Source of the DNA: Chryseobacterium sp. 6424 | Lineage (GTDB): Bacteria > Bacteroidota > Bacteroidia > Flavobacteriales > Weeksellaceae | Reading direction: 5' to 3' | Length of the DNA stretch: 64,000 nucleotides | Assembly: GCF_003692615.1 (NCBI RefSeq) | Contig: NZ_CP023540.1 | Span: forward strand, 1,798,001 to 1,862,000 | Shown here: positions 56,499 through 58,961 of the stretch, one piece after another | Layout: the number at the start of each line of letters is the position of its first letter | How positions within the stretch are numbered: position 1 is the first letter of the stretch | Made by a program: the position numbers and the translations under genes | Notes under the pieces: model-generated | Told to the model about the DNA's origin: nothing | Databases searched by the model: none | The model's input: the letters and a program-made list of their open reading frames with translations, nothing else

Positions 56499-56834
56499 TT
56501 AGATGGAATCCAGGATATCAATGATTTCTTCGCCATAATTTTCTATTTTATGTTTTCCGAAACCTTTGATGTCAAGCAGTTCTTCTTTTTTTGCCGGCCG
56601 GTAACGTGCAATGGAAAGCAGTTCCTTATTGGTGGCAATAAAGTAGGCGGGCAGCTTCTGGTCTTTGGCTTTTTCGCTGCGCCAATATTTCAGGGATTCC
56701 AGAATTTTTAATTCATCCGCGTTTAGTTCTTCCTCGGTTTCGGTAATATATGTTGAGGAATCTGTTTCGTTTACTGTAGGTTTATTTTCTTCATAGTACA
56801 GGATCACCGACCAATTATAATCGCGAAAATCAAA
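56499..56834 (-). pseudogene. HRDC-domain protein, 3' remnant cut by prophage
   Basis: The last 111 codons encode FDFRDYNWSVILYYEEN, an acidic linker and an HRDC domain (LNADELKILESLKYWRSEKA, KELLDIKGFGKHKIENYGEE). HRDC domains bind nucleic acid in RecQ and RNase D relatives. Flavobacterial homologues that I know carry about 40 more N-terminal residues before the WSV-YE motif; here the frame upstream of 56834 turns into low-complexity sequence overlapping the phage end. I infer that insertion removed the 5' part, which would lie beyond the other prophage end. An open frame from ATG 56900 exists, but its first residues would be phage-derived. Confidence 0.7.
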
Positions 56835-56868
56835 TGTCAAAAAAAATAAAACCAAATGTCCAAAAAAA
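56832..56868. repeat. Direct repeats at the prophage end
   Basis: AAATGTCAAAAAAAA (56832-56846) and AAATGTCCAAAAAAA (56854-56868) lie 22 bases apart, two helical turns. TG at 56835 could be the terminal dinucleotide. They resemble transposase-binding end repeats of transposable phages. Confidence 0.5.
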
Positions 56869-56886
56869 CCGCTATACAGCGGTTTT
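56865..56886 (-). terminator. Terminator overlapping the stop of the formyltransferase gene
   Basis: AAAACCGCT (56865-56873) pairs with AGCGGTTTT (56878-56886), loop ATAC; the minus strand continues TTTGG. It ends phage transcription only about 30 bases from the prophage end. Confidence 0.7.
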
Positions 56887-57531
56887 CTTGTTATAATCAA
56901 TCATTAACAAATCGGGTCGGTAAATGTCCTTTACGTTAGTATCCGGCTCAAAAGTGCTGTACTTATGATCCTGAGGTACTCGTTTTATCACACCATTTAA
57001 AAGATCTTTCAATGCCGTTTCAAGCAACTTTAAACCCATTGGACACAGTTCATCACGCCACAGCTTTCCGGCGGATTCTTGGGGCGAAAGATAATACTCT
57101 GGAGGAATCCAGCACCAGTCTTGGTATGCAATATCGCCGCGGTCTATTCCGGAGTTCAACCAGAACACCGTCCCGCCGGTAATTGATTCCTTCATCCGTA
57201 TTGCCCACTCAATAGATGATCGGCCTCGATGCCGCGGTAAAAGTGAAGGATGGTAACCAAGCCAGCCATGGCGCGGAATATACCGCGTTTTCTTTCCAAT
57301 ATAGTCAAAGGAGTGTGCTGTTATTCCAAGATCACACGCCGGCATCTTGTCAGCCGTTAACGTTCCAGCAGGCACAATAGGCACACCAAACCGCCGGGCC
57401 GCTGCGCCTATATATTTATCATCCAATGGGCAACAAACGCCGACCACTTCAATCTCTAATCTCCTGCAAAGGTGGAAAACCTCCTCCGCAAAATACTTCT
57501 GTCCTGATATAAAAACTTTATAACTATTCAT
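56872..57531 (-). CDS. Formyltransferase-family protein at the prophage end, 219 aa
   Basis: Rossmann-type start (YKVFISGQKYFAEEVFHLCR) and the formyltransferase signature GYHPSLLPRHRGRSSIEWAI with catalytic-type His, followed by TGGTVFWLNSGIDRGDIAYQ whose Asp fits the catalytic Asp of 10-formyl-THF transferases. The usual Asn two residues before the His (N-x-H) is Gly here (GYH), so the chemistry may differ. Too short to carry the C-terminal tRNA-binding domain of Fmt, so not a housekeeping methionyl-tRNA formyltransferase. It overlaps the GNAT frame by eight bases. Context suggests it acts with the ATPase-GNAT protein, possibly supplying or attaching a one-carbon group; that is inference. 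Confidence 0.8.
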   Translation of the reverse strand: MNSYKVFISGQKYFAEEVFHLCRRLEIEVVGVCCPLDDKYIGAAARRFGVPIVPAGTLTADKMPACDLGITAHSFDYIGKKTRYIPRHGWLGYHPSLLPRHRGRSSIEWAIRMKESITGGTVFWLNSGIDRGDIAYQDWCWIPPEYYLSPQESAGKLWRDELCPMGLKLLETALKDLLNGVIKRVPQDHKYSTFEPDTNVKDIYRPDLLMIDYNKKTAV

Positions 57532-58066
57532 TTCCTAAATATTTAAATCCTTGTATTGCTCTGAAATGCCCGCCATATCCTCCGCTGTTTGCCTTTTTAA
57601 CACCACCCTTAATTTCGCCGGGAAAGCCCTTTGATGTCCGGTTAATAGATGCGTTACTCCGCGCCTTATTACTGCCGTGAAGTTTCGCACTATTTTGAAC
57701 CCACTTTTTAGAATTTCTCAGATAGCCGCAAAGCTGCGGGTGGGAAGTGTGAAAAAAGGTTCCATACTTATGTCCACGCCTGCCGTTGCCATCAAGGTGG
57801 TGCTGCATAATTGCGTTTAGAAAGGTAGTTCCAACACCTGCTCCTTGCCACTCTGGCATTACAACCAGGCGAGTTGCGCGGTAGGCTTTAGCCGTGAACA
57901 TTGGGCAGACGGCAACGTGGCAGACTAACTCTCCATTAACGGTGCCTACAAAGTATTCAGCGCACGGCGGGTGCTTCAGGTCTAAATAATAATGCTCCTT
58001 AAAAAATCGCCAGTAACTTCCGTTGACCTTCCAAATGTCGAGCTGGATATCTGGCCGCCTTCGGGC
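57524..58066 (-). CDS. GNAT acyltransferase domain in the -1 frame behind the ATPase
   Basis: In the frame -1 to the ATPase an open stretch of 180 codons runs from 58066: RRRPDIQLDIWKVNGSYWRF, FKEHYYLDL, EYFVGTVNGELVCHVAVCP, then the acyl-CoA loop RLVVMPEWQGAGVGTTFLNA (QxxGxG) and the end GGHFRAIQGFKYLG. An ATG-started version exists only from 57901 (125 aa), which would delete the first strands of the fold. Phage proteins with an ABC ATPase fused to such a GNAT domain are known (COG2401 type), so I believe this is the second half of one protein, made by frameshifting or split by a one-base deletion. Likely an acyl-group transferase to DNA or nucleotides, by analogy with Mu Mom; substrate not proven. 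Confidence 0.75.
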   Translation of the reverse strand, partial: ARRRPDIQLDIWKVNGSYWRFFKEHYYLDLKHPPCAEYFVGTVNGELVCHVAVCPMFTAKAYRATRLVVMPEWQGAGVGTTFLNAIMQHHLDGNGRRGHKYGTFFHTSHPQLCGYLRNSKKWVQNSAKLHGSNKARSNASINRTSKGFPGEIKGGVKKANSGGYGGHFRAIQGFKYLGNE

Positions 58067-58671
58067 TTTTTTTTTACTTCCGATACTCGCGTATCATAAA
58101 CCCAGTCTGGCTGTAGCCAGTCGATTACATCATAGTGGCAGGAGAGTAGCACAATCTGCTTTCCTGTCTTGCGCCAACTCTTTGCAAAGGCTGCGGCACC
58201 GATTTTGGCAATCTGACGGTCAACTACCGAAGTGAACTCATCAACCACTACTTTATCGGGTGCGTCGCAAATCAACCGCGCCAAGCCTGCGCGGAACTGC
58301 TCACCGTTAGATAGCACCTTGAACGGTCGTAACCACGCCGGAACATCACCAAGCCCGACCGCGGAAAGCGCGCCGGTCACCACGTTCATGTTTTCCGCAT
58401 TGGGCGCGATATCTTCAATAATAGGCAGGTTTGCATCCCAGCCATGTGAAAGTTCAACTATACCGGCGTCAGGCCAAATCTGCTTACCTATGGAAGTTTT
58501 ACCGGAACCGGACGGTCCTACGATGAGACCGATCCGCCAGCCATCTTCCTCGATGGGGATTTCAGCAACATGCTCCCAATTATGGCCGCTTTCTGCATTA
58601 AAGAGGCTCTTTACTTTTTCGCTTCTGAAACCTGTGAAATTATCGCAGGTGTGTTTTACATGAATTTTCAT
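57982..58671 (-). CDS. Compact ABC-type ATPase of the prophage-end cassette, 229 aa in the 0 frame
   Basis: Walker A GPSGSGKT (52-59), signature LSNGEQ (120-125), Walker B VVVDEFTS (141-148) with Glu145 and H-loop His179 in LLSCHYDVIDW. No membrane helices and no permease gene nearby, so it is a soluble ABC ATPase, not a transporter subunit. After K202 the 0 frame adds 27 unconserved residues and stops at 57982, while the -1 frame gives the GNAT domain; the joined product would have 382 aa. The start ATG overlaps the stop of the 42-aa ORF (ATGA). It may use ATP to load the acyltransferase on DNA. Confidence 0.82.
   Translation of the reverse strand: MKIHVKHTCDNFTGFRSEKVKSLFNAESGHNWEHVAEIPIEEDGWRIGLIVGPSGSGKTSIGKQIWPDAGIVELSHGWDANLPIIEDIAPNAENMNVVTGALSAVGLGDVPAWLRPFKVLSNGEQFRAGLARLICDAPDKVVVDEFTSVVDRQIAKIGAAAFAKSWRKTGKQIVLLSCHYDVIDWLQPDWVYDTRVSEVKKKPEGGQISSSTFGRSTEVTGDFLRSIII
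58066..58076 (-). other. A9 run with A AAA AAG slippery heptamer at the ATPase-GNAT junction
   Basis: Minus strand reads GTA AAA AAA AAG CCC in the ATPase frame. A AAA AAG is the same heptamer used for -1 frameshifting in E. coli dnaX. A slip there gives the 382-aa ATPase-GNAT fusion. The same result would follow from one more A, so phase variation or a homopolymer read error are equally possible. Confidence 0.6.
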
Positions 58672-58796
58672 ACTGATACTACTTTTAAATTTTTAAATCC
58701 CATTTTTTTCAGCTTTTCAAAAAGCTCTTTCTGTTCTTTTTCCGTGTCTGTCTTAATGATCACGGCGTGTTGTTCTTTGTACTTAAAGTTTGACAT
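58668..58796 (-). CDS. Small phage ORF, 42 aa, leading the cassette
   Basis: ATG at 58796 gives MSNFKYKEQHAVIIKTDTEK and ends FKNLKVVSV. Its TGA overlaps the ATPase ATG, so it is probably translated and couples ribosomes into the ATPase gene. Charged, with an alpha-helical middle (EKEQKELFEKLKKMG). No family recognised; it might play a leader or Com-like control role. Confidence 0.55.
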   Translation of the reverse strand: MSNFKYKEQHAVIIKTDTEKEQKELFEKLKKMGFKNLKVVSV

Positions 58797-58821
58797 TTAT
58801 ATTTATTTTAGTTTATCTTTG

Positions 58822-58927
58822 CCGCTCTGACCACTATACACAACGAAACCCGCTAAAGAGGACTTTTCGTCCTCCGTAGCGGGTTTCCGTGTGTTTTTAA
58901 AAGTGGTCAGAGATTTTTAAAAAGCGG
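58822..58927 (-). promoter_or_regulatory. Large nested hairpin upstream of the modification-type cassette
   Basis: Three perfect helices are stacked: outer CTCTGACCACT (58825-58835) with AGTGGTCAGAG (58902-58912); middle GAAACCCGCTA (58845-58855) with TAGCGGGTTTC (58877-58887); inner GAGGAC (58858-58863) with GTCCTC (58869-58874), loop TTTTC. It is transcribed from the minus strand about 30-115 bases before the 42-aa ORF. No T run directly follows the structure on that strand. It could be a leader control element or a structured RNA. Confidence 0.6.
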
Positions 58928-58953
58928 AGGGCGTTTTTTTATTTCCCGCCTCC
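58915..58953 (-). terminator. Terminator at the end of the tail-gene operon
   Basis: GGAGG (58926-58930) and following CG pair with CGCCTCC (58947-58953); the minus strand continues GCTTTTTAAAAATC. It lies just after the stop of the 133-aa gene. Confidence 0.55.
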
Positions 58954-58961
58954 TGGGGAAA

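Follow-up and report, generated by a model that had tools for sequence, protein, structure and literature searches.

Genes of the cassette

The window, a 64,000-nucleotide stretch of the Chryseobacterium sp. 6424 genome, contains a Mu-like prophage, recognized by its portal (PF06074) and Mu F (PF04233) proteins, the phrog_310 transposase and the phrog_296 transposition protein. An earlier note on this DNA had located a four-ORF cassette at a prophage end, in the place that mom occupies in phage Mu, and the cassette was indeed found to comprise the last genes of the prophage, close to a candidate right end (Table 1). This candidate, a 15-nt inverted match consisting mostly of an A-run, lies approximately 37 nt from the cassette end; no target-site duplication was recognized there, therefore the exact end of the prophage is not proven. 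Among 100 genomes (the window's own and 99 relatives, 35 of the same genus) the cassette occurred only in the window's own, and matches in the other genomes reached at most 32.6 bits, mostly over the general ABC stretch.

Table 1. Features of the cassette and its surroundings (positions refer to the window)
Feature	Position	Strand	Remark
42-aa ORF	58668..58796	-	predicted stand-alone ParB-like C-terminal domain (phrog_28816)
ABC ATPase ORF, 229 aa	57982..58671	-	PF00005 above cut-off
Putative frameshift site, nine A then G	58066..58075	-	A-run 58075-58067 inside the ABC ORF
GNAT domain, -1 frame	57524..58075	-	phrog_11143 positions 197-351
Formyltransferase-like ORF, 219 aa	56872..57531	-	PF00551, E 2.9e-16
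Terminator-like hairpin, 3' end of cassette	56865..56886	+ (scan); by eye fits - too	consensus match only
Candidate right end, Mu-like prophage	56832..56846	.	inverted copy at L198 7666-7680
Intergenic stretch with long inverted repeat	58797..58961	-	between cassette and tail genes

The four ORFs had been described as overlapping. This holds for the 42-aa ORF with the ABC ORF and for the GNAT ORF with the formyltransferase-like ORF, but not for the middle pair, since the ABC ORF and the GNAT ORF as defined by its ATG (57901-57524) do not overlap. The cassette may be a separate transcription unit; a weak promoter-like match was seen at 58833-58805, in a region with two such matches against 4.0 expected by chance.

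The ABC ORF aligns to positions 1-194 of phrog_11143, and the Walker A, signature, Walker B and H-loop motifs could all be read in the alignment, in agreement with the full motif set claimed before. Its zero-frame product is an ABC domain of about 200 aa followed by a short out-of-frame tail. The GNAT assignment was likewise confirmed, by the phrog_11143 alignment, by an acyl-CoA motif (QGAGVG in the window) and by an AlphaFold model with a GNAT fold (pLDDT 82.9); the CoA motif Q75-G76-x-G78 is unchanged across 74 rows. Because the fold matches best to acetyltransferases acting on proteins or polyamines, SpeG and RimI among them, it is no demonstration of DNA as substrate. In a PADLOC search the GNAT, formyltransferase-like and 42-aa ORFs had no match, and the weak matches of the ABC ORF (mad3, AbiLi and mad8) are taken as general ATPase similarity.

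The acyltransferase part lies in the -1 frame

phrog_11143 (357 aa) spans the ABC and GNAT parts as a single protein. In the window the GNAT frame is open upstream of its ATG as far as a run of nine As within the ABC ORF, with no ATG, GTG or TTG in between, and this start-less part encodes the first third of the domain, which is missing from the ATG-defined ORF. The first ATG, GTG or TTG of the GNAT frame is residue 57 of the P0001 stretch. Thus, the C-terminal GNAT domain with its acyl-CoA motif is present, but it forms one protein with the ABC domain only if the reading frame is switched by -1. The A-run contains the heptamers A AAA AAA and A AAA AAG, both in the phase of the ABC frame. The expression logic suggested earlier, four translationally coupled ORFs, does not fit a GNAT part that is in the -1 frame and, in the window, lacks a separate start.

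Such a break could be an assembly error or a sign of a decaying pseudogene in this prophage alone, all the more as it falls within a nine-A homopolymer. This explanation was favoured at first, because the first two scans for related loci, with the best 80 retained in each, gave an unbroken ABC-GNAT match in 166 of 169 loci; the other three were the window, L025 (contig end) and L009 (two-gene phage). Those scans, however, were biased to unbroken proteins, and the explanation was dropped when the GNAT part of the window itself was used as query and revealed that the closest relatives, with ABC domains differing by up to 44 percent, break to the -1 frame at the same run. Moreover, the dN/dS of the GNAT part in the -1 frame was 0.02-0.07 in four of five comparisons (the fifth gave no value), which shows selection on the GNAT frame. 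Together these results make an error or pseudogene very improbable.

The scans retained the best 80 of 578, 275, 347 and 357 confirmed relatives. Removal of duplicates reduced 331 junctions to 246 (the unclassified L173, L262 and L280 were left out), of which 171 had one ORF, 73 a -1 and two a +1 arrangement (L224 is one in the +1 frame); since each scan retained only its best 80, 171 versus 73 describes a sample and not a frequency. After exclusion of the two-gene Firmicutes phages L009 and L174, 71 loci with a -1 split remained. A run of six to eleven As was found in 70 of these 71 genes, as opposed to three of the 171 one-ORF loci of the same best-80-per-scan sample; 68 of the 70 runs were located by script and two (L231 and L286), which lay outside the script's search region, by eye. 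In L275 the break is at another place. Of 63 split relatives analysed (the 64th, L262, was skipped), 62 had their GNAT part in the -1 frame, and an in-phase A AAA AAN heptamer was present in all 62 runs checked, which included the window and one +1 locus. Even the short runs (A6/A7) of the frameshift loci were in slip phase in 14 of 14 cases (15 with L174). On the ABC tree the split label required four changes, compared with 49 in shuffles.

Starts internal to the GNAT frame were also counted. With L009, L174 and L275 left out, three of the remaining 70 loci had no HYY motif; no ATG, GTG or TTG preceded this motif in 40 of the other 67, and a possible start codon did so in 27, in six of them an ATG. 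In the branch of the window the ABC and GNAT halves are probably joined only by the ribosome slipping back one base.

Run length varies among related phages, and one-ORF loci with six, ten and eleven As exist (n = 3), as would be expected if the A-run were a phase-variable switch, with mutations in run length enabling or disabling the acyltransferase. Phase variation would, however, scatter the frames, and the script-found runs of at least six As comprised 69 in the -1 arrangement (including the two-gene L174), one in the +1 arrangement and three in one ORF. We regard phase variation as quite unlikely.

Taken together, the junction pattern looks like conserved programmed -1 frameshifting, and we are confident, on the grounds of the comparisons above, that the frame switch is conserved and functional. 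Annotation would take this widely conserved switch for a broken gene. No published account of frameshifting in ABC-GNAT genes was found in a literature search that was thin on subscription papers.

A hairpin follows ten of the short runs

Slippage could take place during transcription instead of translation. A polymerase can slip on runs as long as nine to eleven As, and no marked hairpin accompanies the long runs: structure downstream of long-run junctions was weak (mean z -0.74), none was marked at the window's own junction (z 0.10), and no hairpin shared by all junctions was found in 56 unique stretches (mean z -0.43). The short runs speak for the ribosome. Ten of the 14 short-run loci, all with A7, have a common stem starting at the sixth base after the run, in which 93 of 100 cells are paired and three pairs have changes on both sides. 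Covariation of this stem was 0.396 against 0.274 ± 0.031, a value reached in 0 of 500 shuffles, although the ten sequences are related to each other and two of five measures were not above shuffles (double-change pairs, 123/500; further pair types, 207/500). The other four short-run loci, for which different structures were predicted, were not included in this alignment (z-scores: L208, -0.51; L335, -1.69; L345, -0.46; L349, -1.08). With all A6/A7 runs in slip phase and ten of them followed, at the usual distance, by a hairpin that covaries, these junctions resemble ribosomal -1 sites. Transcriptional slippage thus appears rather unlikely, and a ribosomal switch likely.

The ABC-GNAT gene has two regular partners

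The 42-aa ORF, which had been thought to be a leader, matches phrog_28816 (E 1.8e-8), and in Yago84, Jace and EastWest the ParB-like proteins end in the same domain. By these similarities the ORF encodes, as a separate unit, the domain with which phage ParB-like proteins terminate, an identity that rules out the leader peptide reading. Of 239 junctions (seven of the 246 sampled were left out), 234 have the small ParB-type domain next to the ABC gene. A ParB domain is also the suggested identity of a small ORF of P. gingivalis phages that carries the annotation 'acr candidate'.

The downstream enzyme belongs to the formyltransferase family and has Gly in place of the catalytic Asn (LGYHPSLLP), exactly as the earlier note had it. 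Among 207 of 213 unique ORFs that fit the search motif, of which His is a part (six without the motif were left out), Ser was conserved in 207, Asp at H+36 in 205 and Asn in none. The closest PDB sequences of the window enzyme are 2bw0/1s3i, and a three-sequence profile matched 10-formyl-THF dehydrogenase (FDH; 4.3e-34) ahead of Fmt (9.4e-24) in the PDB, so the enzyme is predicted to be of the 10-formyl-THF-dehydrogenase type. Among NCBIfam models Fmt (TIGR00460) scored best, but with 58.8 bits it stayed under the cut-off of 201.5, and identity with methionyl-tRNA formyltransferase is not supported on this basis; PHROGs labels the family, phrog_9240, as phosphoribosylglycinamide formyltransferase.

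Fmt, PurN and ArnA, which share this fold, formylate amines directly. The enzyme might likewise act, without CoA, on DNA itself or on a group placed by the GNAT domain in a two-step tailoring. Amine-formylating members of the fold generally keep the Asn, though, and its absence from all 207 sequences is as in FDH, which has a thiol acceptor, so we consider direct or two-step tailoring doubtful and prefer an FDH-type reaction. FDH uses His106/Ser108/Asp142 to hand formyl on to phosphopantetheine, and formyl transfer to CoA has been proposed for HypX (PMC6802093, with PMC8748788 on the phosphopantetheine arm).

A formyltransferase-like gene was present in 186 of 206 junctions and absent from 20, counted at the same locus and strand with strict adjacency not required; 40 of the 246 were left out because they had no 700 nt downstream or no GNAT end. 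It was on the same strand in 131 of 144 loci, mostly overlapping the ABC-GNAT frame, and in L138 and L051 it was 327 and 613 nt away. Since the loci were fetched by ABC-GNAT queries only, ParB-type domains at 234 of 239 junctions and formyltransferase-like genes at 186 of 206 represent a linkage far beyond chance, and the survey of co-occurrence proposed in the earlier note shows a linked unit in many phages. In Jace, which has no formyltransferase-like gene, genes for an aspartate decarboxylase and a CoA-transferase III follow ABC-GNAT; 11 loci without the gene, read by eye, had no obvious substitute.

Proposed function

The cassette probably puts a small acyl group, perhaps formyl, on phage DNA. 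The DNA-engaging part would consist of the ABC ATPase together with the ParB-type domain, the GNAT domain would move an acyl group from acyl-CoA onto a base amino group in the DNA, and the formyltransferase-like enzyme would make this acyl-CoA. The likeliest donor is formyl-CoA, because the enzyme is of the FDH type, whose relatives give formyl to the thiol of phosphopantetheine, but the choice is tentative, at somewhat under even odds. The mark might be an N-formyl base that would shield phage DNA from restriction. By default the ribosome would make the ABC protein alone, and slipping back by one base on the A-run would give ABC-GNAT; translation would therefore set the ratio of ATPase to ATPase-acyltransferase.

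The target could instead be RNA, a small molecule or a protein of the host or the phage, as the similarity of the GNAT fold to SpeG, RimI and further enzymes that acetylate proteins or polyamines might suggest. The almost constant pairing with a ParB-type domain (234/239), the apparent swap with ParB plus Mom-like genes in Arthrobacter phages and the location at the end of a Mu-like phage point to DNA, and we consider a non-DNA target rather unlikely. DNA modification, the role suggested earlier, remains the best prediction, and base modification is the probable function.

For the reading as a whole, that of a phage DNA-base acylation cassette with FDH-type acyl-CoA supply and a frame switch, we estimate a probability of roughly 0.6. 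Its most specific form, in which a folate enzyme charges CoA, a ParB-recruited ABC-GNAT writes N-formylated bases and -1 ribosomal frameshifting fixes the writer-to-motor ratio, is speculative and on balance unlikely. We know of no precedent for formyl-CoA as a DNA-modifying donor or for a frameshift within a DNA-modification enzyme; if the proposal is true, both would be new. The bare prediction of DNA modification by ABC-GNAT proteins thereby becomes a pathway open to testing, for which a candidate donor enzyme is named and cultured phages such as Gordonia phage Yago84 are available.

Comparison with known systems

Base modification by ABC-coupled GNAT proteins was predicted earlier in Iyer et al. 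(PMC7824862, section 19), and thus the pairing that the earlier note regarded as a known family has this idea in print. The ABC-GNAT proteins of that section (phrog_11143) agree with the two parts in the window in domains, domain order, phages and predicted base acylation; its description includes no formyltransferase-like gene, ParB C-terminal domain or frameshift. No link of a formyltransferase, formyl-CoA or a ParB domain to ABC-GNAT was found in a search thin on subscription papers, and no paper was found on COG2401, which we take to be the ABC ATPase-coupled GNAT family.

Like the cassette, Mom of phage Mu is of the GNAT superfamily (as published) and has its gene where the genome of a transposable phage ends on the right, and the Mom-like loci of Appa and Timinator also have a ParB-like partner. 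By gene order, ParB plus ABC-GNAT of Arthrobacter phage EastWest and ParB plus Mom-like of Timinator occupy the same place. Mom, however, has no ABC ATPase and a different partner domain. No ORF for a zinc-finger regulator of the Com type is present upstream in the cassette, where the 42-aa ORF, predicted to be a ParB C-terminal domain, has no cysteine. Profile comparison by hhalign (probability 0.09 and 0.24 percent, with small Mom profiles of seven and eight rows) gave no similarity, and none of the 50 listed viral fold matches bears the name Mom. Mom membership is not supported, and the kinship suggested before was not detected beyond the GNAT superfamily.

In fusions of a ParB-CTPase fold with an acetyltransferase, one of which, from a bacterium, bound GTP according to a passage of PMC12704722, an acetyltransferase is coupled to a ParB-type domain as in the cassette; that passage mentions no soluble ABC ATPase partner, and in the window the ParB C-terminal domain stands alone in its own ORF.

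The hydrolase domain of FDH (ALDH1L1) is like the window enzyme in its YHPSLLPRHRG motif, His-Ser-Asp triad and replaced Asn. The N-terminal domain of HypX is of the same type by its authors' account. Unlike FDH and HypX, the window enzyme is a single 219-aa domain, with no carrier, dehydrogenase or enoyl-CoA-hydratase-like domain.

The -1 sites of dnaX and of insertion sequences consist of an A AAA AAN heptamer and a downstream hairpin, and give two products sharing their N-terminus. The junctions of the cassette have the same in-phase heptamer and, at ten short-run sites, a downstream hairpin, and they would likewise give two products with a common N-terminus. They differ in that long runs have no evident hairpin, in that the domains are plainly fused in 171 of 246 sampled junctions, and in that the switch would decide whether the ATPase bears an acyltransferase domain.

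Organization of the cassette at the prophage end

The gene set that the earlier note had placed at a prophage end was borne out: its genes come last in a prophage that extends past the window boundary and is Mu-like by its transposase (phrog_310) and transposition protein (phrog_296) as well as by portal and F proteins of the Mu type. At the candidate prophage end no duplication of target DNA was recognised. Among 100 genomes (the strain's own and 99 relatives) the cassette was carried only by the window's own.

Positions of the cassette and of the candidate prophage end in the window
Feature	Position	Strand	Remarks
Cassette: 42-aa ORF, ABC ATPase ORF, GNAT domain, formyltransferase-like ORF	58796 to 56872	minus	
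Candidate right end of prophage	about 56835		~37 nt past last stop codon; 15-nt inverted match, mostly A-run

The proposed four-ORF layout held for the genes, but not for GNAT as an ORF starting with ATG. Defined in that way the GNAT ORF begins at 57901, within the domain. Upstream of 57901 the same frame continues with neither stop nor start codon as far as a run of nine As (58075-58067) inside the ABC ORF, and this stretch encodes the first third of the GNAT domain, absent from the ATG-defined ORF. The PHROGs family phrog_11143 (fused ABC-GNAT proteins) covers the ABC and the GNAT part alike. A single ABC-GNAT protein of 373-409 aa is encoded by the phages examined from P. gingivalis, Pseudomonas, Gordonia and the gut.

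Conservation of the frame switch

A −1 frame switch between ABC and GNAT is conserved among relatives of the cassette. The query of the initial scans was an alignment of intact ABC-GNAT proteins, and because 166 of the 169 loci collected were unbroken, the window seemed to be a lone error. This impression was overturned when the GNAT part of the window itself served as query and retrieved its closest relatives: most of the best 80 matches were split, and in 62 of the 63 split relatives analysed GNAT was in the −1 frame (+1 in the remaining one). In total, 331 of 334 loci could be classified, and removal of duplicates left 246 unique junctions, of which 171 have one ORF, 73 are in −1 and two in +1. 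These are sample counts because each scan kept the best 80 matches.

Leaving aside two two-gene Firmicutes phages (L009 and L174), a run of six to eleven As was present at the junction in 70 of 71 −1 loci (68 found by script, those of L231 and L286 by eye in the sequence), as opposed to 3 of 171 one-ORF loci. Every run checked (61 relatives, including one +1 locus, and the window) had the A AAA AAN heptamer in the ABC phase, and among frameshift loci the short runs (six or seven As) were in this slip phase in 14/14 cases (15 with L174). For 11 of 65 loci the open GNAT frame reaches no further upstream than the A-run. Translation of the GNAT part from its own start codon, with no frame switch, is conceivable for 27 of 67 loci, where a possible start codon precedes the HYY motif (ATG in six), but it is not a general way out, as the other 40 have no ATG, GTG or TTG ahead of the motif.

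A FastTree phylogeny of 215 ABC domains requires four changes between split and unsplit states versus 49 in shuffles, near-identical copies among the sequences favouring such clustering; well-supported branches force at least three changes. ABC domains of the split set diverge by up to 44 percent with the A-run retained. Selection acts on the GNAT part in the −1 frame: dN/dS was 0.02-0.07 in four of five comparisons (the fifth gave no value), figures that are rough because changes at synonymous sites are close to saturation or beyond it.

Two metagenomic phages (L021 and L218) have very similar junctions yet differ in A-run length and frame; closely related phages may thus vary in run length. 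In phage pT24 (L173, 3995-5167) a 254-aa ABC ORF is accompanied by a distinct ORF of 113 aa that matches no Pfam family; the two could be another split ABC-GNAT gene.

RNA structure downstream of the A-run

Downstream folding was stronger at short-run junctions (mean z −1.95, n=15, L174 included) than at long-run junctions (−0.74, n=54; p 0.0013, uncorrected for kinship of the sequences). A common stem, starting at the sixth base after the A-run, was found in 10 of 14 short-run loci; the other four have different predicted folds and were left out of the alignment. In the ten, 93 of 100 cells were paired and three pairs were altered on both sides. Covariation was 0.396 versus 0.274 ± 0.031 in shuffles (reached by 0 of 500) and exceeded that of slid versions (0.111 at most), with two of five measures not above shuffles. 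The nine-A junction of the window had no marked downstream hairpin (z 0.10). This pattern would be expected if long A-runs slip unaided and short ones need help.

The formyltransferase-like enzyme and the proposed acyl donor

A formyltransferase-like gene was found in 186 of 206 junctions with enough room. Its closest PDB sequences are 10-formyl-THF dehydrogenases (FDH; 2bw0, 4.3e-34 with a three-sequence profile and 2.2e-21 with a single sequence), with Fmt and PurN ranking behind; the family labels speak against this assignment, being PurN-like in PHROGs and, far below cut-off, Fmt as best NCBIfam model. Catalytic residues were counted in 207 unique ORFs; six more of the 213 lack the motif and were left out. 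Replacement of the catalytic Asn, claimed before for the window protein, extends to all of them: two positions ahead of the catalytic His, 157 have Gly, 39 Ile, 8 Val, 3 Ala and none Asn. The catalytic Ser is retained in 207/207, and Asp 36 after His in 205/207.

According to two articles (PMC6802093, PMC8748788), the His-Ser-Asp triad of FDH hands formyl on to the thiol of phosphopantetheine, and the structure of HypX led to the proposal that formyl is transferred to CoA there. The CoA motif of GNAT is invariant across aligned relatives, and its AlphaFold model (pLDDT 82.9) has a GNAT fold, with SpeG, CBU0801 and RimI as top PDB matches and the GNAT of Leptospira phage LE4 as top viral match. 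In phage Jace (L008, 4089-5200), which lacks the formyltransferase-like gene, ABC-GNAT is followed by genes for an aspartate decarboxylase (PF02261) and a CoA-transferase III, the latter assigned by a PF02515 match to the first 92 residues. Because of the FDH-type triad, the CoA motif and fold of GNAT and the genes that follow ABC-GNAT in Jace, we read the downstream gene as a putative supplier of acyl-CoA to GNAT. Against this, 20 of 206 junctions are without it, and no obvious substitute was seen by eye in 11 such loci.

A 70-73 aa ORF occupies its place in L007 and L024, cassettes lacking the gene. A viral protein named aspartate 1-decarboxylase ranked 19 among the GNAT fold matches.

The 42-aa ORF and ParB-like partners

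In PHROGs the 42-aa protein matches phrog_28816, and ParB-like proteins of Yago84, Jace and EastWest carry a homologous domain at their C-terminus. Among 239 junctions with sufficient upstream sequence, 234 have such a ParB-type small domain next to ABC; 149 are preceded by <100 aa in open frame and 85 end a longer frame. By gene order in Arthrobacter phages, ParB and ABC-GNAT of EastWest take the same place as ParB and the Mom-like gene of Timinator, and ParB is paired with a Mom-like gene in Microbacterium phage Appa too.

In the ParB-like proteins preceding the Mom-like genes of Appa and Timinator (L390/L394), a tail with CxxC replaces the 42-aa domain. The small ORF for the ParB C-terminal domain goes under the label 'acr candidate' in P. 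gingivalis phages (BK068090.1, L002 2876-3004, and relatives); its position next to ABC-GNAT suggests that the label is mistaken.

Proposed mechanism and relation to known systems

We propose that the ParB-type domain and the ABC ATPase would engage phage DNA, the GNAT domain being borne only by molecules produced through slipping. GNAT may then move an acyl group, perhaps formyl, onto a DNA base, and this mark would shield phage DNA against restriction. What the data establish is the linkage of the genes, the frame switch, the selection and the catalytic residues, whereas substrate, donor and protection are inferred from them.

In the literature covered, which included few subscription papers, no link of ABC-GNAT to a formyltransferase, this ParB domain or frameshifting was found; in the accessible part of a frameshifting review 'ABC transporter' is absent and 'acetyltransferase' occurs in other contexts only. 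Acylation of a DNA base by an ABC-coupled GNAT is a prediction of Iyer and colleagues, who named phage pT24 (PMC7824862), and a fusion of an acetyltransferase to a ParB-fold protein bound GTP (PMC12704722).
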